Source of the DNA: a virus
Reading direction: 5' to 3' (one strand)
IMG/VR virus record: IMGVR_UViG_3300042890_002891
Location: 62,001-126,000 of that record
DNA: 64,000 nt
Shown here: one piece after another, positions 8,776 to 24,350 of the stretch
How the letters are laid out: each line of letters begins with the position of its first letter
Position numbering within the stretch: position 1 is the stretch's first letter
Made by a program: the position numbers and the translations under genes
Notes under the pieces: generated by a model
Databases searched by the model: none
What the model was told of the DNA's origin: nothing
What the model saw: only the letters and a program-made list of their open reading frames with translations

Positions 8776-8904
8776 TTACATTTCTACATAATCTTCTTTG
8801 AAGCCACCGCATTCAGGGCAGGGAAAATCCTCTGGTAAATCATCCCAGACTCCTTCAAGTTCTTGATCATGCACATGACCGCAAATAACGCACACATGAT
8901 CCAT
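8776..8904 (-). CDS. Rubredoxin-like protein
   Basis: 42 residues. CVICGH near the start and CPECGG near the end form the two CxxC pairs of an iron-binding rubredoxin, with the expected DDLPEDFPCPECG spacing and a conserved Trp. It is shorter than typical rubredoxin (about 52-54) but has all four cysteines. The start overlaps the rubrerythrin stop (TAATG), so the two are made together. Rubredoxin would pass electrons to the diiron site of rubrerythrin (family knowledge). Confidence 0.88.
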   Translation of the reverse strand: MDHVCVICGHVHDQELEGVWDDLPEDFPCPECGGFKEDYVEM

Positions 8905-9353
8905 TATAGTGTCTCCAGAACTTGAGTATATGCTGCCGCATGACGCTGTTCAACTTTGGCCAGGGCAGTGAAACGCCGTTGAGCCTGGGCTAGAACTGCG
9001 GCAAATTCTTCAGCATGTTGTTTTGATTCTGCTGTTTGATCTGCGGCTTCTGTGGCAGCAGCGGTGTTGCCTTCTGCAATGGCTTCTGCTTGCATTGTGG
9101 GGTACATTGTGGTGAACTCATGAGTCTCTCCTGCAATGGCCATTTCTAGACACTGCTTGACATCTGGTTTACCAACCAGCAATTCTAAATGACCCCAGGC
9201 GTGCAGCAGTTCTTGATCTGCTGTGTGTTCAAAGTGCAGTGCAACATCTTCGTGGCCTTGTGCTCGGGCCATCTTGGCAAAGTAGCGATACTTGACATGA
9301 GCCTGTGACTCACCAGCAAATGCTGCCTCCAAGTTTTTGATTGTGATCGACAT
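8904..9353 (-). CDS. Rubrerythrin-like diiron peroxidase
   Basis: 149 residues of ferritin-like fold. AAFAGESQAH (Glu15), QELLHAWGHLELL (ExxH), GETHEFTTMYP and KVEQRHAAAY supply the ligand-rich helices of rubrerythrin, which reduces hydrogen peroxide. The usual C-terminal rubredoxin domain is absent and is encoded as a separate gene directly downstream. Promoter at 9377-9405, terminator at 8744-8768: a self-contained two-gene unit. In infection it may limit oxidative damage (inference). Confidence 0.9.
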   Translation of the reverse strand: MSITIKNLEAAFAGESQAHVKYRYFAKMARAQGHEDVALHFEHTADQELLHAWGHLELLVGKPDVKQCLEMAIAGETHEFTTMYPTMQAEAIAEGNTAAATEAADQTAESKQHAEEFAAVLAQAQRRFTALAKVEQRHAAAYTQVLETL

Positions 9354-9456: not shown

Positions 9457-9480
9457 GAAAAAGCCCACCGAAGTGGGCTG
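9457..9480 (-). terminator. Rho-independent terminator after the tmRNA
   Basis: Stem-loop AGCCCAC-TTCG-GTGGGCT (9462-9479), then five T on the minus strand. A second copy of the terminator at 8744-8768. Confidence 0.93.
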
Positions 9481-9802
9481 ATTGCTATTTTTGATTACAA
9501 GGTATAACTACCTCGTTTGGCGTCAAGCGTTAGCTGCTACCAAATATTGTGAGTCATTTGCATTTCTCTTTTTTGTGTCTACGGCCGAGCTTCCCCAACC
9601 CTAACGGCTTCTACATTGCCGGACTGTCCATTTCTGTACTCTTAACCCTGTCGAAACTATGCAGGCCCATTATAAAGAATACTACTGAATTGTGTTGGAT
9701 GTTGCCATCCGCAAAAACCTGTGCAATATTCTTTATGGTGGACCTGGGGGGATTCGCACCCCCGTCCAGAATCCTTTTCTGTCTACTTCATACAGTCTTA
9801 AC
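9481..9802 (-). ncRNA. ssrA: Circularly permuted two-piece tmRNA
   Basis: Transcribed in the order acceptor piece, intervening segment, coding piece. The acceptor piece ends in a GC-rich T-arm (GGGGGTGCGAATCCCCC) and CAGGTCC-A-CCA, with the CCA end at 9736. The coding piece starts at 9668 with GGGCCTG, which pairs over 7 bp with CAGGTCC, then continues with the tmRNA-like TAGTTTCGACAGGG. The resume codon GCA at 9559-9561 opens a tag reading frame, ANDSQYLVAANA, ending in TGA at 9523-9525. The 67-nt intervening segment (9669-9735) folds back through AAAGAATA/TATTCTTT. Permuted tmRNAs are known in alphaproteobacteria, cyanobacteria and some betaproteobacteria. tmRNA rescues stalled ribosomes and tags the nascent chain for proteolysis. 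The exact 5' end of the acceptor piece is uncertain. Confidence 0.9.
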
Positions 9803-9808
9803 TGTTAT

Positions 9809-10693
9809 TTATTTTAATGAGTTAACTGAGTCTTCCCAGTCTTGATTGAATGTTGACATTTTTGTATCCCACTCAAACTTCATTCCACTACCTTCCCAAA
9901 TTTTAGCAGTGTTTGAATTGGGATTCTGATGTACAGCCTTCATAGCAGCCTGAATCTTGTTGCGTTGTGCATCAGTTGCGTTCTTCAAGATAAAAAGCAC
10001 ATAGTAGCCGACCTTGAGATTTTTGTTGGCAAGATCTTTTGCAGCCAATGGAATCAAGGCATCAGCTGACGATGGGCTCATACGATACATGCATGTGCCG
10101 TTGCCTGACTGTGCAAATTTTCTTGCCAGCTTGCTTTCAATGATACCGTAGTCAACTTCACCGTTTAGCAAAGCAGTGATAGTGCTTGGACTGCCAGCAG
10201 CAAAATGCACAGGTTTGTGAGTGGTCTTGAATGACGCATTGATTCCGTTGTTGATGCTATTGACCATCACACTAGCAGGAATGGCATGTCCAATCCTGTA
10301 CGATGATCCAGCTGTGACCATACGGGCAGCATTCATTTCTGGTTTGGCTGAACAGATATAGTAAGAGTCATAGTGTACACGAATCAATTCTTTTTCGGTA
10401 AATGTCATTATATTGCAAGAGCCTTGTTTGCGGATACCGGCGTCTATGTCGCCTGCCCAGGGAAATAGCACAGGCATATTTTTATCTATTTTGTCAATAA
10501 CAGCCGTTGCCAGGCACCCAGATCCTGGGTTGATGTAGTCAATTTTGAATTGGTTCTGCAGATCCTGGGTCAATGCACTGGTCTCCAGATAGAACCCACC
10601 TGTTTTTGAGCCAGTGTTCACAATGGTGATGTCCTGTGCCGCAGCAGCCAAGGTCATGGTTGCAAACGCAACCAACGCTAGTAATTTCTTCAT
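9809..10693 (-). CDS. tctC: TctC-like periplasmic substrate-binding protein
   Basis: 294 residues with a clear Sec signal peptide (MKKLLALVAFATMTLAAAAQ). The mature part resembles the tripartite tricarboxylate transporter receptor family: ITIVNTGSKTGGFY near the start, then a ligand-binding alpha/beta body. The receptor would deliver tricarboxylates or similar carboxylates to the TctA permease encoded just upstream in the same unit. The small TctB subunit is not visible. The protein has four or more cysteines, unusual for the family. A phage-encoded receptor suggests manipulation of host carbon uptake (inference). Confidence 0.8.
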   Translation of the reverse strand: MKKLLALVAFATMTLAAAAQDITIVNTGSKTGGFYLETSALTQDLQNQFKIDYINPGSGCLATAVIDKIDKNMPVLFPWAGDIDAGIRKQGSCNIMTFTEKELIRVHYDSYYICSAKPEMNAARMVTAGSSYRIGHAIPASVMVNSINNGINASFKTTHKPVHFAAGSPSTITALLNGEVDYGIIESKLARKFAQSGNGTCMYRMSPSSADALIPLAAKDLANKNLKVGYYVLFILKNATDAQRNKIQAAMKAVHQNPNSNTAKIWEGSGMKFEWDTKMSTFNQDWEDSVNSLK

Positions 10694-10708
10694 TTTTTTT
10701 CAGTCCTT

Positions 10709-11989
10709 TTAAAAATACAATGAATGGAGTCTAAGTCCATAATCCAACAACTTGTCACCGATAAAGTATCCAAATATCAGTCCAGTTGTGTCTCTAAGTC
10801 GTAGTGCCCATCCGAGTATGAGCAGACACACCATGCATTGTAACACAAATACCATGTTGTAGTCAAGCCAGGCCTGATACAATATTGCCAAAACCAAGAT
10901 GGCCAAAATGCCTGCACGCAACAGTTTCAAATTGGTTCTTAGTATGGTGAGTACCTGTGTGACCAAGGGCCAGGCCATGATCAAACCAATTGCTGCCACA
11001 GTCATCTGCAGCAGTGCAGTTGCGCCAAAAATTATCGACGCTGATGCAATTGATGCTGTGAATCCTTTCAACTCCATCAGCGACAACGCTATGGCTTCGC
11101 TGGGCACCAGAGGTAGCCCAAATATTATCAAGGGTATCAGCTGCGACACCGCTCCTGCATTGTTTGCTGTTTCTGCAGATATGATTCTTTCTCTAGGATC
11201 TGTGGTGGTTCTACAGGTTATGTTATAGCTCAGCATTGAACTAAAAATCATTGCCAGGCCAGGCATGAGTCCACCCACAAAACCCACGGCACTGTATTGC
11301 GTGATGCGCAGATAATTCAATCTGGGCCACTTGACTGATGTTGGTATGTGGTTCACCGTCACAGCAGAATTAGACAGTCGATACAGCTGAGGAAATGTAA
11401 ACAAACACAGCAGCACAATGTCCCAGGGAACTCCTGCTGTGAGTGAGCTATTTCCAAAGGTAAGAATACCTGTCTCTAGATTAGAGTTATACCCAACCAG
11501 GCCCAACAAGATTCCTGACAGGCATAGCCCAATACTGGTTTTCAAATCGTCACTAGAATATTTTATTACACCTATCAAGGCAAACACAAACAACATTGAT
11601 ATCAGTTCAGTACGCAAGAAGTAACTCATTGCTGACAAGTGTGCTGCAAGAATCCAACATGCTGTTATAGATAAGATTGCTGCCACAAAACTACCGACCG
11701 CGGCAGCAGCAATTGTGTCTCCGTACTGCGATGCTGGCAGTCTTGGTAGCTCTGCTACTGTGGGTATGCCACTGGGTTCTCCTGCAATCCCTGTGTACAT
11801 GGTGGTAACACTACCGGTGAATTGACTAATTTGAGTTAGTGCAGCATAGAACAAAAATATATCTACAGGCGCCCAGGTTATTAAAAACGGAGCAGATATT
11901 ATCATGGCTATCAAGATGCCCATGCCAGGTAAAATTCCAATGGCCATACCCAGCAATGATCCAGCCAGGATGGCCAGCAGATGTTCCAT
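10709..11989 (-). CDS. tctA: TctA-like tricarboxylate transporter permease
   Basis: 426 residues, strongly hydrophobic, about 10-12 transmembrane helices. GMAIGILPGMGI near residue 15 is the TctA signature region, and SAETANNAGAVSQLIPL with IFGLPLVPSEA around 275-300 matches the second conserved half. Length is shorter than typical TctA (about 500). Its start overlaps the stop of the PP-loop gene at 11989, and TctC follows after 15 nt. It probably acts in the host inner membrane with TctC. Confidence 0.85.
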   Translation of the reverse strand: MEHLLAILAGSLLGMAIGILPGMGILIAMIISAPFLITWAPVDIFLFYAALTQISQFTGSVTTMYTGIAGEPSGIPTVAELPRLPASQYGDTIAAAAVGSFVAAILSITACWILAAHLSAMSYFLRTELISMLFVFALIGVIKYSSDDLKTSIGLCLSGILLGLVGYNSNLETGILTFGNSSLTAGVPWDIVLLCLFTFPQLYRLSNSAVTVNHIPTSVKWPRLNYLRITQYSAVGFVGGLMPGLAMIFSSMLSYNITCRTTTDPRERIISAETANNAGAVSQLIPLIIFGLPLVPSEAIALSLMELKGFTASIASASIIFGATALLQMTVAAIGLIMAWPLVTQVLTILRTNLKLLRAGILAILVLAILYQAWLDYNMVFVLQCMVCLLILGWALRLRDTTGLIFGYFIGDKLLDYGLRLHSLYF

Positions 11990-13278: not shown

Positions 13279-13352
13279 TGGTGCTCTCAACAAGGATCGA
13301 ACTTGTGTCTATACATTACCAATGTATTGTACTACCACTGTACTATGGGAGC
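13279..13352 (-). tRNA. tRNA-Thr(GGU)
   Basis: Acceptor GCTCCCA..GAGAGC, anticodon loop TTGGTAA in the stem ATACA/TGTAT, T-loop TTCGATC, encoded CCA. Confidence 0.9.
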
Positions 13353-13583
13353 GTGGATTTCACGATAACAGGCCAGTGCAAGGTGTCTTGCCTGTGCCAG
13401 TCTATCAAGCACATACTTGGTCAATTCCGGATCATCTCGACGACAACACGGACCACTGCGCCGTTCATCACAATTGGATTGTCTCCAATCATAACTGGTG
13501 GGAAAGAGTGGTTCCGATTCGGCGGGTTCAGAACGTTTCGGTTGTTTGGAATCTGTACAGTCTGATTGATTATTGTGTTGCAT
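13332..13583 (-). CDS. Possible small protein overlapping tRNA-Thr (doubtful)
   Basis: 83-residue open frame (MQHNNQSDCTDSKQPKRSE..) that ends inside the tRNA-Thr gene. The C-terminal half (ELTKYVLDRLAQARHLALAC) looks protein-like, but there is no ribosome-binding site and no clear promoter. The alternative is a gene-free spacer between two tRNAs. Confidence 0.25.
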   Translation of the reverse strand: MQHNNQSDCTDSKQPKRSEPAESEPLFPTSYDWRQSNCDERRSGPCCRRDDPELTKYVLDRLAQARHLALACYREIHAPIVQW

Positions 13584-13711
13584 ACATATACAACGCAGTA
13601 ACCTGTTGTTGAGTTGACACAGATTGGCAAACCTGCTAGAAGAACCCGACCGTAACACACAAGTATCTCGGAGTGACCATGTGCCAGAGGATCGGGCCGT
13701 GTTTCATTATC

Positions 13712-13785
13712 TGGAGCGGGTGAAGAGAATCGAACTCTCGTCGTAACGTTGGCAACGTTCTGCTCTACCATTGAGCTACACCCGC
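13712..13785 (-). tRNA. tRNA-Gly(GCC)
   Basis: Acceptor GCGGGTG/CACCCGC, anticodon GCC in a GCCAACG-type loop closed by AACGT/ACGTT, T-loop TTCGATT, CCA encoded. Confidence 0.92.
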
Positions 13786-13794
13786 TTATAAAAA

Positions 13795-14190
13795 TTAATT
13801 GTTGTCTGCTTGGCTGGCACAGTTTGGGCACAGCAGTTGCAAGTTGTTTGCGGCATTGTTGTTGATGTTGCCATCTAGATGTTGCAGTACAAATTGCAAG
13901 GGTCGACCCAGATAGCTGTCAATGTTGCAGCATTCACAACGTTGTGGTCGAATCACCGCTGAATCAGCAAGACGTTGTTTGCGTTGTTCTACCACATCAC
14001 TAGCCTTGACAGCAACAGGCACAGATTCAATGGCCTTTGCCAACTGTTGCAGTTTGAATGGCGTCAGACTCTTGCGAGTAGCATCATCTGCTTGACATTT
14101 TATACTGCAAAAGCCCGGCGTAGATCGTTCCTGTGTCCAGGAATATCGATCTCTGCAATGTTCGCAATAATAAGTTTGATACACAGTCAT
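13795..14190 (-). CDS. HNH-type endonuclease
   Basis: 131 residues. Two CxxC pairs bracket the fold: CEHC near the N-terminus with CSIKC, and CECC then CPNC near the C-terminus. LQHLDGNINNNAANNLQLLC is the HNH core (His followed by the N..N..NL..LC pattern). Such proteins act as homing or packaging-related nucleases. Its ATG follows a GATAAATA octamer by 5 nt, so late expression is likely. It is flanked by tRNA-Gly and a DUF458-like gene. Confidence 0.82.
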   Translation of the reverse strand: MTVYQTYYCEHCRDRYSWTQERSTPGFCSIKCQADDATRKSLTPFKLQQLAKAIESVPVAVKASDVVEQRKQRLADSAVIRPQRCECCNIDSYLGRPLQFVLQHLDGNINNNAANNLQLLCPNCASQADNN

Positions 14191-14194
14191 CCAG

Positions 14195-14202
14195 TATTTA
14201 TC
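14195..14202 (-). promoter_or_regulatory. T4-type late promoter octamer GATAAATA
   Basis: Four nucleotides separate the octamer from the ATG of the HNH gene. Confidence 0.62.
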
Positions 14203-14218
14203 GCAAACATCACAGGCG

Positions 14219-14689
14219 TCAAGCTACCTTGAGGCTACGGAATCGATCAGCAGCATAACTGGCAGCAAAGGCTTCGGGCTTGACAAAAGGAATCACATTG
14301 CATGTGCCCTTAATATAGCCCACGGCCTGACTGATAACACAGCTGGAACCGTGCATTTCGTTGGGGTTGATGTCAAGGTGTACTTCAACATCACGTCCAT
14401 CTAGTACTTCAGCCAGTTGGAGATACAGTTCAGAAACCTTGTAGACTTCGGTCATGAGTCGCATGGCAGGTTTGCCGGGCTTGCTGTCATAGTCACGCTC
14501 ACGCTGTACTTCACCAAACAACTTGCAGCCATTGTTGCCGTTAATATGCACCACAATAGCCAACACATAGTCAGCATGCCATGCACCGTTGATTTTCACA
14601 CGTTCACTGTCACAGCCCAGGTAAATTTTTGTTTCTGGTGTCTGTGTTCGAATAAACGCTGCCACCTGGGCAAAATCGATTTTTCTCAT
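14219..14689 (-). CDS. DUF458 (YkuK-like, RNase H-like fold) protein
   Basis: 156 residues from the ATG at 14687-14689, since the longer frame runs through tRNA-Leu. KIYLGCDSERV near the N-terminus and LDINPNEMHGSSCV with SYAADR near the C-terminus are hallmarks of the DUF458 family, which adopts an RNase H-like fold with acidic residues (here CDSE and HLDINP). A ribonuclease or RNA-processing role next to tRNA genes is plausible, but the biochemical function of the family is not established. Confidence 0.82.
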   Translation of the reverse strand: MRKIDFAQVAAFIRTQTPETKIYLGCDSERVKINGAWHADYVLAIVVHINGNNGCKLFGEVQRERDYDSKPGKPAMRLMTEVYKVSELYLQLAEVLDGRDVEVHLDINPNEMHGSSCVISQAVGYIKGTCNVIPFVKPEAFAASYAADRFRSLKVA

Positions 14690-14703
14690 TTGTTTCTTTC
14701 TTT

Positions 14704-14782
14704 TGGTACCCCGCCTCGGAGTCGAACCGAGAGAACTCTTCCTTTTGAGAGAAGCGACTTTGCCAGATTTGTCCAGCGGGGC
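14704..14782 (-). tRNA. tRNA-Leu(CAA) with short variable region
   Basis: Acceptor GCCCCGC/GCGGGGT, anticodon loop CTCAAAA in the stem CTTCT/GGAAG, T-arm CTCGG-TTCGACT-CCGAG, CCA encoded. The variable region is only about 6 nt, unlike the long arm normal for leucine tRNAs. Confidence 0.78.
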
Positions 14783-14783
14783 T

Positions 14784-15332
14784 TTAGTAGTTATATCGCT
14801 GACCAAATCCTACTGGATCAGCTTCATGTGCTTGAACAGCTTGAGTTATGGCTCGTACCACAAACTCATTGAACGAGATATCCAGTTCATGTGCGGCCTT
14901 CATGTATGTTAACAGTTCTTCATCTGTGAAGTCCACCGGCACTTGCACACGAGTATCATACTCTTGACCGGCCACAATGGCCTGAAACTTTTGAACAAAG
15001 TCATCGTCTGTCTCAAGATCAACATAGTTGACATCATCCCAGGCTTCATTCATGTTAACACCGCGATTCTTTGCTTCCTTGTCATGCTTTTTCACATAGT
15101 CAGGATGCATCATTCTGTAGGCACGATCGTTTGTGTAGTCGCATACTTCCACACAATAGACCTTTTGGCTCCGGGTGCTGAACACAATATTGGCACTCCA
15201 GCCACCTGTGCCATGAACGCCATTCCAGGAGCTCAACTGATAGCTGTTGGATCCAAAGCACTGCCAGCCATATGTGTCGCCTTCGGTGATCCGGTAATCC
15301 ACCAGTTCCATAAATTCTTTCATACTCAACAT
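14784..15332 (-). CDS. Conserved phage protein, function unknown
   Basis: 182 residues from the ATG at 15330-15332, which has CAGGAGTATAAC upstream. The N-terminal two thirds are beta-rich with many Trp, Tyr and Gly (WQCFGSNSYQLSSWNGVHGTG). The C-terminal part is a helical tail (EELLTYMKAAHELDISFNEF) that resembles a ribbon-helix-helix-type segment. It is transcribed after the two genes upstream and ends 2 nt before tRNA-Leu. Function not recognised. Confidence 0.7.
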   Translation of the reverse strand: MLSMKEFMELVDYRITEGDTYGWQCFGSNSYQLSSWNGVHGTGGWSANIVFSTRSQKVYCVEVCDYTNDRAYRMMHPDYVKKHDKEAKNRGVNMNEAWDDVNYVDLETDDDFVQKFQAIVAGQEYDTRVQVPVDFTDEELLTYMKAAHELDISFNEFVVRAITQAVQAHEADPVGFGQRYNY

Positions 15333-15333
15333 G

Positions 15334-15750
15334 TTATACTCCTGATTGTTTGCGTGATTCACGCAGGTTGTGATGTGTGTCGCACAAGGTCTTGAGCCAG
15401 CCACCATGGCGCAGTACGCCCTGTGAGCCACACTCTTCGCAGGCATGGCTTGCCCAGGCTGCTGCCATGGTCACCATACCGCTGATCTCATTGTCGCCGC
15501 CATCATAGTAGAAACGCAGTCCGCCAAATTTTTCTTTGATCTGTGCCACTGTCACTTGGGGCACCACTGGTGACTGCCGGTTCTGCCAGTCAATATGATG
15601 TTGGATACTGGCGCACAGGCTGGCAATAATGGGCCACCATCCAGCAGCACATTCAATGCCACCGTATTGGCCCGCAAACATTTTGGGGTAAGTGGTTTCA
15701 AGATGCTTGACGAAAGCATCGTATTCTTGAAATTCCGGGTCCTGATCCAT
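15334..15750 (-). CDS. Conserved phage protein with CxxC zinc-ribbon-like end
   Basis: 138 residues from the ATG at 15748-15750, chosen for the AAAGGA site 7 nt upstream; the open frame extends another 26 codons to 15828 without such a site. The middle contains the memorable VKEKFGGLRFYYDGGD-type segment (here IKEKFGGLRFYYDGGD), and the C-terminus has CEECGS and a later CDTHH, likely one zinc site. I know this family as a recurrent phage hypothetical; its role is unknown. Confidence 0.75.
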   Translation of the reverse strand: MDQDPEFQEYDAFVKHLETTYPKMFAGQYGGIECAAGWWPIIASLCASIQHHIDWQNRQSPVVPQVTVAQIKEKFGGLRFYYDGGDNEISGMVTMAAAWASHACEECGSQGVLRHGGWLKTLCDTHHNLRESRKQSGV

Positions 15751-15824
15751 GAGTGATTCCTTTGTTGTGATAGAGATTGCGGCCTGATCAAGAGCACTGA
15801 TCATGGCAGGATTGTTCCATTCCA

Positions 15825-16049
15825 TCATCGTCGTGTGGCGCCAATTCTGCTGGCCTTGTTCCAGTCGTATGCAACGCCATCGGGGCACACTCCATCTTGA
15901 ACACTATCCACACCAAATATGCCACACGCTTCAAAGTCCGGACCCCGAATGGTCACAAACATGCCAACAATTCGAGCAAAGCTGATTGCTTCGCTCAATG
16001 TAGGACATGAGTTGAGTGGTAGTCCTGATTTGCTGATTACTTTGTACAT
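15825..16049 (-). CDS. Small hypothetical protein, possibly from a leaderless mRNA
   Basis: 74 residues (MYKVISKSGLPLNSCPTLSE...), alpha/beta in pattern. The ATG lies only 6 nt after the TATAAT of the promoter at 16056-16084, so the transcript would begin at or near the start codon. Function not recognised. Confidence 0.6.
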   Translation of the reverse strand: MYKVISKSGLPLNSCPTLSEAISFARIVGMFVTIRGPDFEACGIFGVDSVQDGVCPDGVAYDWNKASRIGATRR

Positions 16050-16055
16050 GATTTC

Positions 16056-16084
16056 ATTATACAGTATTTGTGACTTGTTGTCAA
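16056..16084 (-). promoter_or_regulatory. Consensus sigma70 promoter
   Basis: TTGACA-N17-TATAAT, a perfect match to the sigma70 consensus, 6 nt from the start codon at 16049. Confidence 0.85.
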
Positions 16085-16090
16085 ATGATT

Positions 16091-16175
16091 TGGTGCCCCA
16101 GGTCGGACTCGAACCGACACGCCACAAGGACATGAGTTTCTAAGACTCACACGGCTACCATTACGTCACCGGGGC
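16091..16175 (-). tRNA. tRNA-Leu(UAG)
   Basis: Acceptor GCCCCGG/CTGGGGC, loop CTTAGAA closed by TGAGT/ACTCA, long variable arm of about 13 nt as expected for leucine, CCA encoded. Confidence 0.92.
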
Positions 16176-16181
16176 ATTATT

Positions 16182-16257
16182 TGGTGCAACCTGTAGGAAT
16201 CGAACCTACTTCAATGCCTCTTCAGGGCACCGCTATAACCATATCAGCTAAAGTTGC
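16182..16257 (-). tRNA. tRNA-Phe(GAA)
   Basis: Acceptor GCAACTT/AGGTTGC, anticodon loop CTGAAGA, T-loop TTCGATT, CCA encoded. Confidence 0.9.
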
Positions 16258-16264
16258 ATGTTGT

Positions 16265-16355
16265 TGGCGGAAGGCTAGAGAGTTGAACTCTAAAGGCGCT
16301 ATTAACGCTCGGCTGTTTTCAAGACAGATCCCATCGCCAATTGGGTTGGCCTTCC
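16265..16355 (-). tRNA. tRNA-Ser(UGA)
   Basis: Acceptor GGAAGGC/GCCTTCC, loop CTTGAAA, long variable arm, discriminator G and encoded CCA, all normal for serine. Confidence 0.92.
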
Positions 16356-16361
16356 GTTGAG

Positions 16362-16439
16362 TGGAGCACAGGGTGAGATTTGAACTCACGATTTTTCAGA
16401 TTTGCAATCTGGTGCGTTGGACCGCTCCGCCACCTGTGC
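16362..16439 (-). tRNA. tRNA-Cys(GCA)
   Basis: Acceptor GCACAGG/CCTGTGC, loop TTGCAAA, T-loop TTCAAAT, encoded CCA. Confidence 0.88.
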
Positions 16440-16446
16440 TTGATGT

Positions 16447-16520
16447 TGGTCTCTCGAGAGTGAATCGAACACTCGTCATATGGTCCCAAACCATAAATTC
16501 TACCATTAAACTACCGAGAG
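16447..16520 (-). tRNA. tRNA-Pro(UGG)
   Basis: Loop TTTGGGA closed by TATGG/CCATA; acceptor CTCTCGG with CGAGAG and discriminator A; CCA encoded. Confidence 0.9.
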
Positions 16521-16524
16521 AATC

Positions 16525-16598
16525 TGGTACCTCGTGACAGAATCGAACTGCCGTCTGCGCCGTGTAAAAGCGCGGCCCTACCATTAGACGAACGAGGC
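16525..16598 (-). tRNA. tRNA-Val(UAC)
   Basis: Loop TTTACAC closed by GCGCT/GGCGC; acceptor GCCTCGT/ACGAGGT; CCA encoded. Confidence 0.88.
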
Positions 16599-16625
16599 AT
16601 AAATTAGTCGCACACAACTTGTCCT

Positions 16626-16631
16626 ATTATA
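16626..16631 (-). promoter_or_regulatory. Possible -10 element for the 16.1-16.6 kb tRNA cluster
   Basis: TATAAT 28 nt upstream of tRNA-Val. The -35 region at 16649-16654 is a poor match, so this is tentative. Confidence 0.4.
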
Positions 16632-16734
16632 CTCCGTGTGCTATGGAGAGTTTGGCTGCGAGTGTTAGTCGCTTAAATACTTGATGTACACATATGACAA
16701 CATTACCACAACTGGACTGCATATCCACTTGAGC

Positions 16735-16848
16735 ATGAGCAAGCACGATACCTGTTATATTTTTGTCAATGATATTTTTAGTAACCGATTGACTCTGCGT
16801 TTCTTCAACAACACAGAATCGGCACTGGAGTTTATCCGCAGCTTTTGA
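16735..16848 (+). CDS. Small plus-strand ORF with its own terminator
   Basis: 37 residues (MSKHDTCYIFVNDIFSNRLT.. then FFNNTESALEFIRSF), plausible amino-acid composition for a small alpha/beta peptide. Its stop codon lies inside the loop of a plus-strand terminator (16834-16868), which supports a real transcript in this direction. No clear promoter or ribosome-binding site is visible. Function unknown. Confidence 0.45.
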   Translation: MSKHDTCYIFVNDIFSNRLTLRFFNNTESALEFIRSF

Positions 16849-16868
16849 TCAACTGCGGATATTTTTGG
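16834..16868 (+). terminator. Rho-independent terminator, plus strand
   Basis: Stem ATCCGCAG / CTGCGGAT (16834-16841 and 16853-16860) followed by ATTTTTGG. The T-run is on the plus strand only. Confidence 0.8.
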
Positions 16869-16876
16869 ATGGGATG

Positions 16877-17143
16877 TTACGCAGGATCAGAGATTGCTAT
16901 ACTAACAATATCTAGTCCGTATGTGTTTGCAAATGTGCCAACATAGGCCACGTCTTCCTCGGCTGCTGCTTGGTCCAACCAATCTCTGATCACAGTGTGA
17001 TCAGAGATTATACCTGCAACATCCGTTGTTAGTCCAGCTAGAAATTTTGTTTGAAGATAAGCTAGACGTATTTCTCGAGCAGCTAAATAGCTTTCATCCA
17101 ACGGGGAATTGGTCCCCCACACAATTGTAACATTTTTTGTCAT
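16877..17143 (-). CDS. Hypothetical protein
   Basis: 88 residues from an ATG with AAGGAAAATTT upstream. Alpha/beta pattern (MTKNVTIVWGTNSPLDESYL...), acidic, no cysteines. It is the last gene of the unit that begins with the sulfotransferase-like gene at 19363. Function not recognised. Confidence 0.65.
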   Translation of the reverse strand: MTKNVTIVWGTNSPLDESYLAAREIRLAYLQTKFLAGLTTDVAGIISDHTVIRDWLDQAAAEEDVAYVGTFANTYGLDIVSIAISDPA

Positions 17144-17189
17144 AAATTTTCCTTTATAGGATGAACACCAGGATCATCTTTGCTAATAT

Positions 17190-18026
17190 TTAGCAAATAT
17201 TATTTTTTATATACTGCGAATACAGTAAATCAGCAAAGTAAACATTCCAGTCATGTCCAAAATGCAACCGGTCTCGGGCTCTAGAAAATCCAAATTCGTG
17301 TCCCAACGAGTTTGACAAATTGTCAGATCTGCGAGGATCAAAATCTCGTTCGTAAGTGTAAACGTCAAAAGAATCTAGATCTTCGTCCTTGCACAATGTA
17401 ATTTCTTGTAGCGGTATTTTTCTATTTTTGCAAATTTCTTGCAGCATGGCACGATTCTTGTCAAATTGATATTTTATATAGCTATTGTCATTGAATATAT
17501 CAGCTGCCTTTTCCAGGCGCTCAATGATGTTAGCATAACCGTCGTGATTTCCTAGTATTATTTTGTACGGCAAGAATCGACGTCTAACAGAAATTTCTCT
17601 GGACGAAAACGCTGGCCACTGAACAAACACTGCCCGTGGTTGCAACACATCAATGGTTTTGGCAATTGCTCGTACCACATAATCGCTGCTGGCAGCAGCA
17701 AGACCTAAATTATACAACTTGGTATCAGGAAACTTTGTTCTCAATATGCCAGGCCAGGTGTGTTCAACTGGACACCCAAGGCCAATGGTGCAACTGTCAC
17801 CAATTGTTATTATAGAATCTCGGCCATCATCAACAAATTCATCAGATCTAAATCCGTGTGTGTTCCACTGGTATGTGATATCAGTGTCTGAGTAGATACT
17901 GTCAGGATTAACTCCCGGCGCATCTCTGCGATACCAGTAACTGGTTTCAGTGTGATCGGGCCCACCAGGAACATTTACAACACTAAAAATTCCTTTGTCC
18001 CAGTTGTTGAAATTGGAAGTCAGCAT
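17190..18026 (-). CDS. SGNH/GDSL-type hydrolase
   Basis: 278 residues. IITIGDSCTIGLG is the GDS block I with nucleophile Ser, NLGLAAASSDYVVR fits the Gly/Asn block region, and DRLHFGHDWN near the C-terminus gives the D..H of block V. SGNH enzymes are esterases or acyl transferases on sugars, lipids or cell-wall polymers. It overlaps the oxygenase-like gene upstream by 7 nt. With the neighbouring sulfotransferase and oxygenase genes it may modify a surface polymer or small molecule (inference). Confidence 0.78.
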   Translation of the reverse strand: MLTSNFNNWDKGIFSVVNVPGGPDHTETSYWYRRDAPGVNPDSIYSDTDITYQWNTHGFRSDEFVDDGRDSIITIGDSCTIGLGCPVEHTWPGILRTKFPDTKLYNLGLAAASSDYVVRAIAKTIDVLQPRAVFVQWPAFSSREISVRRRFLPYKIILGNHDGYANIIERLEKAADIFNDNSYIKYQFDKNRAMLQEICKNRKIPLQEITLCKDEDLDSFDVYTYERDFDPRRSDNLSNSLGHEFGFSRARDRLHFGHDWNVYFADLLYSQYIKNNIC

Positions 18027-18685
18027 AGACTATCCAGATCCAGTTTGCGTCTAAGTCTGATACTGAGAGTGGTTCTTGGCAAGCTACCTAGATTAATTGC
18101 ACGGTGCGGAATAGTTACATTTAAATATATCGGTTGAGTCAAGCTGGCGCGAGCAACTTCAACGGCCGAAGATTCGTCATATGTTGACCAATTCATTACA
18201 ATTTTTTTCATTAACTCTGCAGGTGAATCAAAAAATTCTGGTGATGCAGGTGCGCTACCTAATTTTGTTGCTGCGTACCAAGCAGTATAAGAGTTATCAA
18301 AATTCAACAAAGGCAAATTGATAGCCTCACCTGTTAAATCCAACGGAAAGGCATCCCCAACGTCGGAGTCTATGTGTATGGGCATGCTTTCTATGTGGGC
18401 TCCGTTGCTGGCAATAACAATCCAGGAAATTAAATAAATGTCACGAGGTGTTATTTCTTTGCTGTCCAGCCAATCTGCAAATACAGGACATGCATTTTTA
18501 AGATTTCTGATATCGCGTAAAAATCGGTGATCAACTATTTCATTGTTGTTAATCAACCCAGTTGAAGTAGTGTCTGTATCATACATTGACACATACAACG
18601 GACAAGTGGCTCGGAGATAAGTGTCAATCTCAGCAGACATCTGTGGCAGGTTTGGAGCAGCAAGTGTTTTGTAATAAGGTAGCAT
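18020..18685 (-). CDS. Putative non-haem iron, 2-oxoglutarate-type oxygenase
   Basis: 221 residues. PIHIDSD supplies an HxD motif, followed by a beta-rich core with LNLPLLNFDNSYTAWY-like spacing (here INLPLLNFDNSYTAWY), then IPHRAINLG with the distal His and PRTTLSIR with a candidate 2-oxoglutarate-binding Arg. This order (HxD...H...R) is that of the double-stranded beta-helix oxygenases. Substrate unknown. Part of the same operon as the SGNH and sulfotransferase genes. Confidence 0.68.
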   Translation of the reverse strand: MLPYYKTLAAPNLPQMSAEIDTYLRATCPLYVSMYDTDTTSTGLINNNEIVDHRFLRDIRNLKNACPVFADWLDSKEITPRDIYLISWIVIASNGAHIESMPIHIDSDVGDAFPLDLTGEAINLPLLNFDNSYTAWYAATKLGSAPASPEFFDSPAELMKKIVMNWSTYDESSAVEVARASLTQPIYLNVTIPHRAINLGSLPRTTLSIRLRRKLDLDSLC

Positions 18686-18691
18686 AGTAGA

Positions 18692-19363
18692 TTAAATCAA
18701 GTTAATGGCCAACATGTATTCATGTATCTGATTCCAATTCTCAATTGTGACATCAGTTGTGTTTTGTTTCTGAGCTGGAGGATTACTGCTGACCAGTTTG
18801 TTTTCCAACATTAGATCTTCATAGTACGCTGTTTGAATTTTGTGTTTTAGTTTGTTTTTGTTTGATTCAACATTTGGATCAATCACTCGATTGTAGAGAT
18901 TAACAACCATGTCCATGTCAACAGTTACAGAAGATGCAGTTATGGGTATCATCCAGGCATTCAGAGTGTATGCAATGGCCAATGATTTGAATGCTTTTAA
19001 TTTGTCTCGACGTTCCAGAAACACAACTGTGGCATTTTGTGCGTTGACCCAGTCAACTATGTCTGGTCTGTTCAGATAGAATGAATGAATTTTTACTGAT
19101 TTTGGCTTGCTGACTTTGGATAACCCAACTATTCTGTCAGACATCATGGCAACAAATTCAGATTCAGAATACTGCGTAGGTTCCGGATCTTGATCAAAGG
19201 TAACATCGTTGCCGTGAAAATCAACTGTAACAAACTTGCTGAACGGTTCTGAACAATTCACATGAGGCAAACAACTTTGTAGCCATGTGCTGCCTGATCT
19301 AGGATGCGAAATAATTATCACGTCTTGATCGGGATTTATGTCTAATAGATCAGAATTTGCCAT
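18692..19363 (-). CDS. Sulfotransferase-like protein
   Basis: 223 residues. IIISHPRSGSTWLQSC near residue 15 is the PAPS 5'-phosphosulfate loop of sulfotransferases, and VFLERRDKLKAFKSLAIAY at about 115-135 fits the 3'-phosphate-binding region. Such enzymes move sulfate from PAPS to sugars or small molecules. It is the first gene of the 19.4-16.9 kb unit. Acceptor unknown. Confidence 0.82.
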   Translation of the reverse strand: MANSDLLDINPDQDVIIISHPRSGSTWLQSCLPHVNCSEPFSKFVTVDFHGNDVTFDQDPEPTQYSESEFVAMMSDRIVGLSKVSKPKSVKIHSFYLNRPDIVDWVNAQNATVVFLERRDKLKAFKSLAIAYTLNAWMIPITASSVTVDMDMVVNLYNRVIDPNVESNKNKLKHKIQTAYYEDLMLENKLVSSNPPAQKQNTTDVTIENWNQIHEYMLAINLI

Positions 19364-19424
19364 GTTAAAAATTGCACTCTTTAATATAACCTATTTAGCC
19401 TGGCATACAAGCAATCTGAATAAT

Positions 19425-19498
19425 TGGTAGCCTGTCCGGGTAACGATCCTGGGTCGCTCGATTATCAGTCGAGTGCTCTGCCATTGAGCTAACGGGCT
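19425..19498 (-). tRNA. tRNA-Ile(GAU)
   Basis: Loop CTGATAA closed by CTCGA/TCGAG; acceptor AGCCCGT/ACAGGCT with one mismatch; CCA encoded. The T-loop ATCGTTA and its stem are atypical, so the gene may be under weak constraint. Confidence 0.78.
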
Positions 19499-19508
19499 AT
19501 TCTAAAAC

Positions 19509-19582
19509 TGGTACGGGTGGAAGGAATCGAACCTTCACTAACAGAGTCAAAGTCTGTTGTGCTACCACTACACAACACCCGA
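19509..19582 (-). tRNA. tRNA-Gln(UUG)
   Basis: Loop CTTTGAC closed by ACAGA/TCTGT; T-arm GAAGG-TTCGATT-CCTTC; weak first acceptor pair, as is common in glutamine tRNAs; CCA encoded. Confidence 0.87.
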
Positions 19583-19590
19583 ATAAAACT

Positions 19591-19665
19591 TGGTGGTTGT
19601 GGTTGGTATCGATCCAACCTCCTCGCCTTATGAGGGCGGTACGCATCCATCTACGTCACACAACC
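19591..19665 (-). tRNA. tRNA with CAU anticodon (Met, or Ile2)
   Basis: Acceptor GGTTGTG/CACAACC fully paired; loop CTCATAA; CCA encoded. A paired 1:72 argues against an initiator. Whether C34 becomes lysidine (Ile2) cannot be seen. Confidence 0.85.
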
Positions 19666-19670
19666 AAATT

Positions 19671-19746
19671 TGGGGTATCCTACCGGTATCGATCCGGTAC
19701 TACCGCTTTCACAGAGCAGGGTGCAGGCCACTACACTAAGGATACC
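19671..19746 (-). tRNA. tRNA-His(GUG)
   Basis: Acceptor GGTATCC/GGATACC with C73; loop CTGTGAA; CCA encoded. The extra G-1 is not encoded (T at that position). Confidence 0.87.
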
Positions 19747-19751
19747 ATATA

Positions 19752-19863
19752 GGTGCTCTCTGTGGCGCTTGAATCCACGGTAGCCCTGCTCTTCCTGGCA
19801 CTTGTTCACACGCCGCGGGCTAGTGAAGTTCAGTGTTGTTCCAGTGTAGCTACTACAGAAAGC
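19752..19863 (-). ncRNA. tRNA-like RNA with aberrant core (112 nt)
   Basis: GCTTTCT at the 5' end pairs with AGAGAGC near the 3' end (7 bp with one G-U), followed by ACC. A near-normal T-arm (GTGGA-TTCAAGC-GCCAC) precedes it. The 70 nt in between do not form a normal anticodon arm. They make a long hairpin (ACTTCAC...GTGAACAAGT) instead. Identity unknown. Confidence 0.5.
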
Positions 19864-19874
19864 ATTTATATAAT

Positions 19875-19951
19875 ACCATAGAAAAACACACTTGGCTCCC
19901 CTTGGTTGTTTGTATCTGTCAATTCAGATTGAAAGTGCGTTTATCTATGGT
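19875..19951. repeat. Inverted-repeat element of the GAAACACA family (copy 1)
   Basis: Arms ACCATAGAAAAACACA (19875-19890) and TGCGTTTATCTATGGT (19936-19951) form a stem of about 14-16 bp around a 45-nt loop. The right arm overlaps the CCA end of tRNA-Lys(UUU). Four other copies lie at 26.1-27.1 kb. Confidence 0.72.
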
Positions 19952-20023
19952 AGGACCACTCGGACTCGAACCGAGGATTTACAGGTTAAAAGCCTGATGT
20001 TATAACCGCTTAACTATGATCCC
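19948..20023 (-). tRNA. tRNA-Lys(UUU)
   Basis: Loop CTTTTAA closed by CAGG/CCTG; T-arm CTCGG-TTCGAGT-CCGAG; acceptor GGGATCA/TGGTCCT; CCA encoded. Confidence 0.9.
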
Positions 20024-20026
20024 ATG

Positions 20027-20100
20027 TGGTCCCTCCACCGAGATTTGAACTCGGACGTCACGGATTAAGAGTCCGGCATGCTGCCTTAACATCTTGAAGG
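20027..20100 (-). tRNA. tRNA-Lys(CUU)
   Basis: Loop CTCTTAA closed by CCGGA/TCCGT; T-loop TTCAAAT; acceptor CCTTCAA/TGGAGGG with one mismatch; CCA encoded. Confidence 0.87.
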
Positions 20101-20455
20101 GTTGGTATGTAAAATTGTCTTTCACGTGCCAACCCGGACCTACACAGGATCTGGAGTTGACACTATAGTTTAGGAGATTTTCGTTTCATATAGTTCTTTC
20201 TTTGGTGTGACTGTTGTTATTTTCTGCGTGTGAATTTGCGCAGAAATTTTAAAAAATAATATTTCAACCCGCGTAGTGGGGCCAACTCAAATGCGAATTG
20301 TCCCGGCAGCTCACGCGGGACACTGCGTAGGCTCGATCAATGACTTCTTTGCTGCTTATGCTGCACTTCAGTTGTTTAATAACACTCTGCGACAGAGTTT
20401 AGCCGGATTACATCAAATATTCTTGTAACCTATCAGCTGCTCAGGATCATTTTAA
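20101..20455. other. Gene-free stretch with hairpins
   Basis: I see no coding frame worth reporting. It holds a hairpin TTTCTGCG/CGCAGAAA followed by TTTT on the plus strand (about 20219-20250), and a larger fold with CCCGCGT/ACGCGGG arms (about 20268-20315) next to GCGTAGGCTC, a word also found in the structured elements at 25.2 kb. Confidence 0.5.
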
Positions 20456-21940
20456 TTACCTAAATGTTGGCAAATACTTCTCATCCGTAACTAGTTCAAG
20501 TAATCTTCTTTTGTATTCTGATAGAAACTTATGGGGAGGAGTAGGTTCTTTTTCATAAAAGAGACTACCTGTGTTACTTTGCAGATCATTATATTTTTCA
20601 ATGAGTCGTTGAGCTTGGAAAAAATTCATTTGGTCATTTTCCCATATTACAAAATTATGATGTGGTGCGTTGGGCATTTCGCGGTATCCAAATTTTGCAT
20701 AATCTTTGGTGATACTGCTTTCAAATACTGCGCCGTTTGCTTTTTTACCAATTATTAATGGTCTAAAGGCGAACGAGTCTAATTTTATTTCACGTGTACT
20801 CAACGCCTTCAGAGTGCGCTCAGCTGATTTAATTGTTTCGTAAGGAGTTCCAATTATAAAACTGCCATGCAGATTCATGTCATGGTATGTTTCTTTAATG
20901 GTTGATATCATTGCAATTTGTTTTTCTCTATTATAGCCTTTACCAACAGCTTGTCCACTTTTTCTATCCAACGTTTCTATACCAAAAAACATTGATCTTA
21001 CTCCAATATCGTATAACATATGAATAGTTTCGGGATGAGTGCAAATCAAATCTAATCTTGCATAACACCAGAACTCAGGTTTAAATGGCAACGATACTAT
21101 CATGTCTCTTAACTGCACAAGTTTTTCAACTGAATCGTTGAAAGTGTCATCTACTATCATGTAAATACAAATTCCATGATTGTTATAATTATGCAATAGT
21201 TCTTGTTTCAGTGTGGCAGCATCTTTAATAAAATCTAGTTTGGTCTTACCGTTCATAGGGTACGAACAAAATGCACAGCTGAATATGCATCCTCTGCCAA
21301 TTTCGATAGGTAATCTGGTATGATTCACAACGTCTTCAGCACACCATGTCATGGTATCCTTTGAAAATTCGTATCCTTCTGCAAGCACATTGTTGATGAT
21401 AATCTTGTTGTTGTTGATATTTTTATAGCTATTTTTTAATACAACACCGTGTTTTATGTGATCAACCAAATTTACTATGTTTGCTTCAGCGTATCCCAGC
21501 ACCAGGAAATCAGCATACTTGCATCGTAATTCTGGTCGTACTATCGTACCTCCTGCGACAATTTTTATTGCAGCATTCAACTTGTTGATGTGTGCAAACA
21601 CTTGATCATCAAAATCTGCTCCTTGCGGAAATAAATTAAAATTTTGTCCATGAATATTAGAATTAGATCCAGCCGTCGGCCCAGTTGCAACACTTGTAAT
21701 CAAATCATAGAATGTGGTGCTAAACCCTATCATGCATGTGTCTGACCCTACGGCACGATTTAATAATGTATAAATTTCATCAATAGTAAACTCGGACACA
21801 TGATTCACTACTAAACAAGAATACCCACTGGCACGCAGAGTATTTGCTAACTTGTATGCGCCAATAGCAGGAATAAATACTGAGTCATTAGGATTTCTGC
21901 GAACTATATCAGTAAAAAGAATAACATTAAAATTTGGCAT
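20456..21940 (-). CDS. B12-binding-type radical SAM enzyme
   Basis: 494 residues. The N-terminal ~190 residues resemble a cobalamin-binding Rossmann-like domain (IGAYKLANTLRASGY, later AGGTIVRPELRCKYADFLVLGYAE). The radical SAM cysteines are in GRGCIFSCAFCSYP (CxxxCxxC) near 215. FFGIETLDRKSG and GSFIIGTPYET fit the TIM-barrel core. Such proteins carry out methylations or rearrangements on unreactive carbons. The gene has TATAAATA 57 nt upstream and an AAAGGAAC site, so it is probably late. Substrate unknown. Confidence 0.85.
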   Translation of the reverse strand: MPNFNVILFTDIVRRNPNDSVFIPAIGAYKLANTLRASGYSCLVVNHVSEFTIDEIYTLLNRAVGSDTCMIGFSTTFYDLITSVATGPTAGSNSNIHGQNFNLFPQGADFDDQVFAHINKLNAAIKIVAGGTIVRPELRCKYADFLVLGYAEANIVNLVDHIKHGVVLKNSYKNINNNKIIINNVLAEGYEFSKDTMTWCAEDVVNHTRLPIEIGRGCIFSCAFCSYPMNGKTKLDFIKDAATLKQELLHNYNNHGICIYMIVDDTFNDSVEKLVQLRDMIVSLPFKPEFWCYARLDLICTHPETIHMLYDIGVRSMFFGIETLDRKSGQAVGKGYNREKQIAMISTIKETYHDMNLHGSFIIGTPYETIKSAERTLKALSTREIKLDSFAFRPLIIGKKANGAVFESSITKDYAKFGYREMPNAPHHNFVIWENDQMNFFQAQRLIEKYNDLQSNTGSLFYEKEPTPPHKFLSEYKRRLLELVTDEKYLPTFR

Positions 21941-21996
21941 AATTGATCAATGCTGTATCAGGTGACAGCATAATTTTCATAATTGTTCCTTTAAAC

Positions 21997-22004
21997 TATT
22001 TATA
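21997..22004 (-). promoter_or_regulatory. T4-type late promoter TATAAATA
   Basis: Exact match to the T4 late consensus, 57 nt upstream of the radical SAM gene and just inside the tRNA-Thr spacer. Confidence 0.72.
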
Positions 22005-22007
22005 TAG

Positions 22008-22081
22008 TGGTGCCCCACGACAGAATCGAACTGCCATCACAGGATTACAAAACCAGTGTACTGCCATTGTACTAGTAGGGC
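22008..22081 (-). tRNA. tRNA-Thr(UGU)
   Basis: Acceptor GCCCTAC/GTGGGGC; loop TTTGTAA; the anticodon stem carries two U-U mismatches; T-loop TTCGATT; CCA encoded. Confidence 0.8.
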
Positions 22082-22136
22082 GAAAAAGAACAGTTCAGGG
22101 ACCTAACTTCTTAAGATGAAGAGTATGAACTATATT

Positions 22137-22215
22137 TGGCTCCGCATCTGGGGTTCGAACCCAGCTAATCATTGATTAACAGTCAAGTCCGTGCACCTAG
22201 CTCGGATTCTGCGGA
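22137..22215 (-). tRNA. tRNA-Asn(GUU)
   Basis: Loop CTGTTAA closed by TTGA/TCAA; T-arm CTGGG-TTCGAAC-CCCAG; acceptor TCCGCAG/ATGCGGA; G73, CCA encoded. Confidence 0.9.
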
Positions 22216-22224
22216 ATAAATTGT

Positions 22225-22314
22225 TGGCGGAACGAAAGAGACTCGAACTCTTAAAGCGGCTTTCACCACTCGACGGATTAGCAATCCGCTCCAATACCAT
22301 TATGGGACCGTTCC
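22225..22314 (-). tRNA. tRNA-Ser(GCU)
   Basis: Acceptor GGAACGG, loop TTGCTAA closed by CGGA/TCCG, long variable arm, G73 and CCA. Confidence 0.92.
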
Positions 22315-22430
22315 AGGAAAATACTTAGCAGCATTGTGCTCTGCTAGAAAAATTTAACGTGGAGCCTTTCACTTGCCACGATTGGTACATCAAAGTACTT
22401 GAAGGTTACACCCAACCTCTAAGAGTGACT
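22315..22430 (-). ncRNA. Structured spacer RNA of unknown function
   Basis: 116 nt between tRNA-Ser and tRNA-Tyr with three hairpins: TAGCAG...CTGCTA, CGTGG...CCACG and an AAGTACTTTGATGTACC fold. No open reading frame. Confidence 0.4.
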
Positions 22431-22519
22431 TGGTGGAAGTGGTAGGATTCGAACCTACAACGTTTCTTATGTGGCGGATTTACAGTCCGTTGCCTTCAAC
22501 CAATTCGGCACACACTTCC
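22431..22519 (-). tRNA. tRNA-Tyr(GUA)
   Basis: Loop CTGTAAA closed by CGGA/TCCG; long variable arm; T-arm GTAGG-TTCGAAT-CCTAC; CCA encoded. Confidence 0.93.
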
Positions 22520-22525
22520 TAATAA

Positions 22526-22600
22526 TGGTGGAGGATAGGAGAATCGAACTCCTGACTGAAGCTTGCAAAGCTACTGCGTTCCCAATTACGCCAATCCCCC
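22526..22600 (-). tRNA. tRNA-Ala(UGC)
   Basis: Loop TTTGCAA closed by TAGC/GCTT-type stem; acceptor GGGGGAT/ATCCTCC; T-loop TTCGATT; CCA encoded. Confidence 0.88.
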
Positions 22601-22607
22601 GTTATCT

Positions 22608-22684
22608 TGGTCGGTCCTGACGGATTTGAACCGCCAACTTCTAGTTTCGAAGACTAGCACTCTATCCAGTTGAGTTAAGGACCG
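22608..22684 (-). tRNA. tRNA-Arg(UCG)
   Basis: Loop CTTCGAA closed by CTAGT/ACTAG; acceptor CGGTCCT/AGGACCG; CCA encoded. Confidence 0.93.
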
Positions 22685-22689
22685 ATATC

Positions 22690-22764
22690 TGGCGTACCCC
22701 CAAGGACTCGAACCCTGACTTAACGGTGTTGGAGACCGTTGTGCTGCCATTACACTAGAGATAC
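22690..22764 (-). tRNA. tRNA-Trp(CCA)
   Basis: Loop CTCCAAC closed by ACGGT/ACCGT; T-arm CAGGG-TTCGAGT-CCTTG; CCA encoded. Confidence 0.92.
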
Positions 22765-22773
22765 AAAATTTCT

Positions 22774-22879
22774 ACACACTGTCTGCGGCATCACAGCCCT
22801 GATCAGCTCAATGTGTGTATCGAAGCACTCTTCATGGATGGACCCACGTGTCTCCCGACGGATAGAGAGTGCTTCGATA
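22774..22879. ncRNA. Strong hairpin region with competing folds
   Basis: A perfect 14-bp stem, TATCGAAGCACTCT (22818-22831) with its complement (22866-22879), encloses 34 nt. Just before it CTACACACTG...CAATGTGTGTA (22774-22820) forms another stem with the ACACAC core of the GAAACACA repeat family. CTCTATCC near 22910 can compete for CGGATAGAGAG at 22859-22869. Confidence 0.5.
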
Positions 22880-22990
22880 CGCTGTAATTTTTCATCTCAC
22901 AAAAGAGACTCTATCCTACAGGCCGCCCATTTGCCCATGTTTTGAGTGCGGGTCAGGATCTCGTTTCCTATACACACTATCTAACGCTGA

Positions 22991-23026
22991 AAAGAAAAAA
23001 CCCTGGAGTTTTTAGTTCCAGGGTCT
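22991..23026 (-). terminator. Rho-independent terminator
   Basis: Stem ACCCTGGA/TCCAGGGT (23000-23007 and 23017-23024), then six T on the minus strand. It ends the unit holding the 42-codon ORF. Confidence 0.88.
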
Positions 23027-23051
23027 TTTGAATTTGCGGATGTTAACTTAG

Positions 23052-23180
23052 TTACTCATCACACCTCTCAAGAGATCCCGGAACGCCTGGAATACTATTC
23101 ATGCGACCATACGCATGTGACCAGGCGGATACCTGGGTAAACATGGGTTTCGTCAACAGTGAACAGAGAGTTGTTTTCAT
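23052..23180 (-). CDS. Small ORF with dedicated promoter and terminator
   Basis: 42 residues (MKTTLCSLLTKPMFTQVSAW.. ending SLERCDE), AGGA six bases before the ATG. The unit has a TTGACA/TATAAT promoter (23191-23219), a TATAAATA octamer further up (23245-23252), and a terminator 26 nt after the stop. The alternative is a structured small RNA with a chance frame. Function unknown. Confidence 0.45.
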   Translation of the reverse strand: MKTTLCSLLTKPMFTQVSAWSHAYGRMNSIPGVPGSLERCDE

Positions 23181-23190
23181 CTTAAATCCT

Positions 23191-23219
23191 ATTATACTTT
23201 ATTTATCATTTGATGTCAA
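23191..23219 (-). promoter_or_regulatory. Consensus sigma70 promoter
   Basis: TTGACA-N17-TATAAT, reading into the 42-codon ORF. Confidence 0.85.
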
Positions 23220-23244
23220 CCACCAAAGATAACTTCGTGTGAAG

Positions 23245-23252
23245 TATTTATA
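23245..23252 (-). promoter_or_regulatory. TATAAATA within a palindrome
   Basis: The late octamer lies in GTGAAGTATTTATACTTCAC, a 20-bp near-perfect palindrome just past tRNA-fMet; it could also act as a processing hairpin. Confidence 0.45.
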
Positions 23253-23266
23253 CTTCACGGCCAAAA

Positions 23267-23340: not shown

Positions 23341-23362
23341 AAATTATTTATCCTATGCGTGT

Positions 23363-23614: not shown

Positions 23615-23633
23615 ATTCACAACGGAGTCATAC

Positions 23634-24341: not shown

Positions 24342-24350
24342 CTCTGTAGT

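Follow-up and report, generated by a model that had tools for sequence, protein, structure and literature searches.

The window, a 64,000-nt stretch of DNA (G000:62001-126000) within a 261,673-bp IMG/VR virus record, contains a complete, circularly permuted tmRNA (ssrA) gene on the minus strand, running from 9797 to 9456. This gene very probably encodes a functional phage-borne tmRNA from which host enzymes remove the spacer and which takes part, together with host SmpB, in ribosome rescue during infection. Two features go beyond known systems: an apparent exchange of elbow types, accompanied by exceptionless covariation at positions 18-55 and 54-58, and a class of tag peptides ending in AANA.

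Identification and anatomy of the tmRNA gene

Rfam model RF04321 (tmRNA_permuted) aligned end to end with 9797-9523 at 93.9 bits (cmscan, E 6.8e-17; gathering cut-off 47), and ARAGORN concurred, calling a "tmRNA*" (permuted) with the tag ANDSQYLVAANA. The best clan match of the gene was the beta_tmRNA model RF01850, which gave a full-length alignment over 9852-9456 with a score of 77.9 bits, below its 84-bit cut-off. The Rfam scan found no match to the normal one-piece tmRNA (RF00023) anywhere in the window. A generic scan for the bare permuted arrangement had the tmRNA gene as its sole site in the window and returned nothing in 100 simulated first-order Markov windows, and a chance arrangement was rejected on this ground. 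The original prediction had placed an acceptor half before a coding half at 9481-9802; all of these elements are present, read on the minus strand, and the description as a circularly permuted tmRNA is backed by the covariance models as well as by covariation. Our analysis adds the strand and helix H2, which extends the acceptor piece to 9797. The features are as follows.

9811-9816, minus strand: putative -10-like hexamer TAAAAT, proposed from sequence; upstream of the conserved leader, weak, without a good -35, overlapping the end of the upstream gene
9736-9797, minus strand: 3' (acceptor) piece, transcribed first (RF04321 alignment, ARAGORN, covariation)
9752-9758, minus strand: T-loop TGCGAAT (U54 G55 C56 G57 A58), an uncommon elbow, partnered by A18 G19 in the D-loop
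9669-9735, minus strand: spacer, 67 nt, presumed excised
9523-9668, minus strand: 5' (coding) piece to the tag stop (RF04321, ARAGORN, beta model alignment)
9601-9631, minus strand: conserved PK1 block ATGGACAGTCCGGCAATGTAGAAGCCGTTAG, common to more than 100 viral contigs
9523-9561, minus strand: tag reading frame, GCA AAT GAC TCA CAA TAT TTG GTA GCA GCT AAC GCT TGA = ANDSQYLVAANA*
9457-9522, minus strand: 3' part of the coding piece and intrinsic terminator, with a conserved GCCAAACGAGGTAGTTATACCTTGT block and a stem at 9479-9462 followed by a T run

The acceptor piece is comprised, in order, of the H2 strand GACTGT, H2 GATTCTG, the T-stem and T-loop GGGGG-TGCGAAT-CCCCC, the acceptor 3' strand CAGGTCC (9746-9740), A73, and an encoded CCA (9738-9736). 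The coding piece, which lies downstream, has the acceptor strand GGGCCTG (9668-9662), the stemless D-loop CATAGTTTCGA, H2 CAGGGTT, the PK1 block, and a short tag frame with a resume codon and a stop (GCA...TGA). The two acceptor strands had been predicted to pair over 7 bp and do so at 7 of 7 positions, G3.U70 included; the 67-nt spacer folds back through its inverted ends TAAAGAATA/TATTCTTTA, and the tag frame and terminator hairpin are present as described. Contact between the stemless D-loop and the T-loop is indicated by covariation at 18-55 and 54-58 and by an invariant 19-56 pair. Allowing up to 3 mismatches, 399 Pseudomonadota genomes yielded no copy of the PK1 block. The TAAAAT hexamer was not called by the consensus promoter scan, which found no clear tmRNA promoter; relatives L163, L180, and L126 have TATAAT at roughly the same place.

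That the gene is phage-encoded, as had been claimed, is supported by the virus record and by the phage protein families in it, namely a phage-type family-B DNA polymerase, an RNA ligase/tail-fibre attachment catalyst, and an HNH endonuclease; an exonuclease is also encoded. The record is related to jumbo phages, the closest isolates for the polymerase being Phosso and Atu_ph07 (46-49%). Sixteen viral contigs that likewise carry permuted tmRNAs have polymerases 57-85% identical to it. Nucleotide comparison of the tmRNA and of 25 kb of the window with phage isolates gave no useful relatives.

Besides the tmRNA, ARAGORN listed 29 tRNA genes in the window (13279-28582, minus strand) covering all amino acids except Asn, and Rfam adds a tRNA at 26534-26461 (35 bits) missed by ARAGORN; the T-loop of this tRNA, TGCAAAT, likewise carries G55. 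Immediately upstream of the tmRNA gene, 9809-10693 (minus) encodes a secreted periplasmic-binding-like protein (weak Phosphonate-bd match, E 0.009), followed by a TctA-family tripartite tricarboxylate transporter permease at 10709-11989 (minus; Pfam E 4e-42); from sequence, this gene pair (9809-11989) resembles a solute-uptake cassette in a phage. Just downstream lies a rubrerythrin-family protein (8904-9353, minus; Pfam E 1e-14) with its own promoter-like site at 9433-9405. Radical SAM proteins are encoded at 20456-21940 and 43142-45067 (both minus), the latter with a B12-binding domain and glycosyltransferase-like neighbours around it at 42303-45921. An aspartyl/asparaginyl beta-hydroxylase (23634-24341; Pfam E 1e-19) inside the tRNA cluster is among the few plus-strand genes.

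Predicted maturation and function

The precursor fold has a z-score of -5.1, and in the minimum-energy fold the acceptor stem runs on without a break into a long spacer hairpin. Once folded, with the two acceptor strands paired across the spacer hairpin, the precursor would be a target for host tRNA-processing enzymes, RNase P acting at GGGCCUG and 3' nucleases at CCA, which would excise the spacer and leave a two-piece tmRNA joined by the acceptor stem and H2. The two-piece form is probable because all studied permuted tmRNAs mature in this way. The continuity of spacer hairpin and acceptor stem would also suit an uncut precursor acting as one piece, the hairpin merely lengthening the stem, but such an RNA would be without a free CCA end for charging, and the permuted tmRNAs studied are cut in two (literature summarised in PMC9004378 and PMC3968760), making this reading extremely unlikely. 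The two-piece tmRNA, if expressed and processed as proposed, would be charged by alanyl-tRNA synthetase (G3.U70, A73) and bound at its elbow by host SmpB, and would rescue ribosomes stalled on broken mRNA during infection by adding (A)ANDSQYLVAANA. No SmpB was found in the 261-kb record or in 30 related records, so the function of the tmRNA would depend on the host, whose SmpB is presumed; a phage-encoded SmpB matched to the elbow type was rejected because none occurs in the 31 records.

Since tmRNA genes are common attachment sites, and such an origin has been suggested for the gene of phage Melnitz (PMC9004378), the gene could be a passenger or relic, that is, a host tmRNA gained by imprecise excision or as an integration site and now non-functional. 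This is improbable: the gene is complete with its terminator, its pairings and tag are kept across relatives through compensatory and synonymous changes, and its body was not found in 399 Pseudomonadota genomes but occurs in many viral contigs. The tmRNA of phage DS6A, which has a tRNA-like domain only, is reported to inhibit tmRNA, perhaps through SmpB titration (PMC4131195; PMC11915505). A similar decoy, titrating SmpB or blocking host trans-translation instead of tagging, could do without a tag frame. The amino acid sequence of the tag is nonetheless conserved, and we regard this role as equally improbable.

As a permuted tmRNA of a phage the gene is not new in kind, because the OM43/Methylophilales phage Melnitz carries one, its authors counting 53 two-piece forms among 133 distinct phage tmRNAs (PMC9004378), the 2025 tmRNA database that introduced RF04321 holds 79 bacteriophage sequences (PMC11915505), and a simple permuted-junction pattern has many matches listed in IMG/VR. 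Melnitz ssrA is likewise a phage-encoded permuted tmRNA from a large aquatic phage, but it has been placed with the alphaproteobacterial ones, whereas our gene fits the beta model better and has a TGCGAAT elbow and an AANA tag; in contrast to Melnitz, no glutamine riboswitch was found by Rfam in the window. With RF01850 the gene shares, over the full-length alignment, the order of elements, the T-stem GGGGG/CCCCC, and H2 CAGGG/TTCTG, and it differs in the T-loop (TGCGAAT compared with UUCGAUU), in a D-loop that is one base shorter with AG in place of GG, in the 67-nt spacer, in the tag, and in scoring under the cut-off. The A18/G55 elbow is held in common with the alphaproteobacterial model RF01849, although the best clan match remains beta. 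The Sinorhizobium jumbo phage Phosso (PV764938.1; DNA polymerase 49%) has a permuted tmRNA scoring 113 bits, but with the T-loop GGCGGTA and a tag frame ending in VALAA, as in its alphaproteobacterial host group. The tmRNAs of mycobacteriophages (Bxz1 and others) and Bacillus phage G are, to our knowledge, not of the permuted kind. Carriage of a tmRNA as such is common to these phages and ours (PMC4131195).

The AANA tag class

The window tag ends in Asn-Ala rather than in the usual, though not strictly defining, Ala-Ala degron. With tags called by a heuristic, AA is the ending of each of the 48 distinct bacterial tags, and the 72 distinct phage tags include four ending in AANA and others ending in FAV, LAV, LMVA, or VLA. 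Searching for the AANA class retrieved 29 viral contigs; counting the window, this makes 30 loci, which encode 10 distinct peptides fitting AND-x-x-[FY]-L-[LVMI]-AANA. Each of the last four residues is encoded by more than one codon across these loci. The class spans elbow types and is absent from the 48 bacterial tags and from the 399 sampled Pseudomonadota genomes; L126 and L127 encode the same peptide as the window with synonymous differences. Because the class pattern itself requires AANA, unbiased support comes from the set of relatives sharing the PK1 block, where AANA occurs in four peptides with no near-miss endings. An origin by one-base stop-loss from ...AA* was rejected, as the class varies in codons and stops (GCT AAC GCT TGA, GCA AAC GCC TAA, and GCT AAT GCG TAA). 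In the degron recognised by E. coli ClpXP, the terminal Ala-Ala-COO- matters most, and KM rises when the penultimate alanine is changed (PMC7652416). The departure of AANA from the Ala-Ala end preferred by ClpXP suggests an altered fate of tagged proteins, and we predict that an E. coli-like ClpX, at least, would treat AANA differently; a resulting change in the proteolysis of tagged proteins is the least certain of our proposals. Separately, many phage permuted tmRNAs, including L091, L048, L156, and L230, encode very long tags of 23-29 residues, such as ANADTFDFSAMSFTGNSVTGAGKFALAA and AKASTGEVTVSGKNVKFSARTVKAESFAV, of which the second does not end in Ala-Ala.

Elbow types and host assignment

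Scanning with the PK1 block of the window gathered relatives in more than 100 viral contigs, which have a common body and fall into a few elbow types.

Elbow A: canonical GG D-loop with UUCGA T-loop
Elbow B (the window): AG D-loop with UGCGA T-loop
Elbows C and D: AG with GGCAG; several match the alphaproteobacterial model RF01849
Elbows E and F: GG with UUCGA, but an H2 sequence of the C/D type

L158, L180, L128, and L129 exceed the RF01849 cut-off. The viral scans were pattern-based, one requiring the canonical GTTTCGAC, and many viral contigs are fragments, so that the frequencies of elbow types are not population frequencies. In a set of 135 distinct tRNA-like domains drawn from phages and bacteria, numbered like tRNA according to where each base sits in its loop, 18-55 is always either A-G (78) or G-U (56), one mis-parsed row aside, and 54-58 is always either G-G (68) or U-A (67); G19-C56 is invariant, and G3.U70 is present in 134. 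For the reverse-Hoogsteen contact 54-58, G-G would be a natural substitute for U-A. Compensatory changes in H2 are seen between relatives (CAG/CTG to TTG/CAA), with double changes of C-G to U-A and A-U to U-A between types A/B and C/D. On these sequence patterns, the elbow-type relatives appear to be real structured RNAs. SmpB sits on the elbow, and its binding requires the contact between D-loop and T-loop (reviewed in PMC3968760).

The T-loop GGCAG as a phage invention was rejected, GGC[AG]G with AG being found in 54 of the 58 distinct bacterial tRNA-like domains parsed, in a sample weighted toward high-scoring alphaproteobacteria. The type-C/D T-arm also occurs in one alphaproteobacterial MAG and two Gracilibacteria MAGs. 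The latter (L244 and L245) have a tmRNA-like acceptor/T-arm with a GGCAGTT T-loop and a terminator-like hairpin directly after it, are apparently not permuted, and by sequence would be an independent case of the G54/G58 elbow. A permuted phage tmRNA at L198 65-324 has an aberrant 8-nt T-loop, TAGCATAT, and the D-loop AAAAGAT, and still scores 67.6 bits to RF04321.

Compared with the spacer of L224, a relative with elbow C and the tag ANDEQFALAA, the window spacer shows 95.5% identity, and five more pairs with near-identical spacers (84-94%) differ in elbow type. L126 and L127 have the tag and 3' end of the window, but elbow C. In the polymerase tree, the six-phage clade holding the window record (support 97/99) includes types A, B, C, D, and E, the elbow labels need 8 changes over 19 rows, and phages whose DNA polymerase is 80-85% identical to that of the window carry at least five elbow types, some beta-like and some alphaproteobacterial-like. 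Elbows thus appear to have been exchanged among closely related phages. Each of 18 records searched has at most one over-cut-off tmRNA copy, so paralogy within one genome does not explain the elbow differences and was rejected. The two loop segments, which lie ~90 nt apart in the window gene and flank the variable spacer, change together, so that either recombination carries both or compatible partners are selected later. Possible causes of elbow movement are matching to host SmpB, nuclease escape, or neutral shuffling. For Phosso the host is known, and the alphaproteobacterial elbow of this phage suits that host; this agrees with SmpB matching but falls well short of proving it. We propose, tentatively and with more doubt than confidence, that in large aquatic phages the SmpB-binding elbow is an exchangeable cassette, its two distant loops swapped together, and the AANA tag phage-specific, the phage thereby tuning its host SmpB partner and diverting tagged proteins from ordinary ClpXP degradation.

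The view that a permuted tmRNA would be a strong host clue is not supported here: close phages carry differing elbows, the beta fit reaches only 77.9 against 84 bits, and elbow swapping among close relatives makes the tmRNA a poor guide to the host. Neighbouring genes were not decisive either, the TctA matches being below 31% identity and spanning alpha- and betaproteobacteria and a porin in L127 being weakly Burkholderiales-like. In such phages the type of tmRNA is no proxy for the type of host. This is relevant to a published proposal in which the alphaproteobacterial-type ssrA of an OM43 phage is taken as the trace of a host switch. Natural variants that match in body and spacer but differ in elbow offer ready material for probing which elbow features SmpB recognises, and tags ending in AANA offer a natural means of asking whether phages change the degradation signal that unfinished proteins receive.
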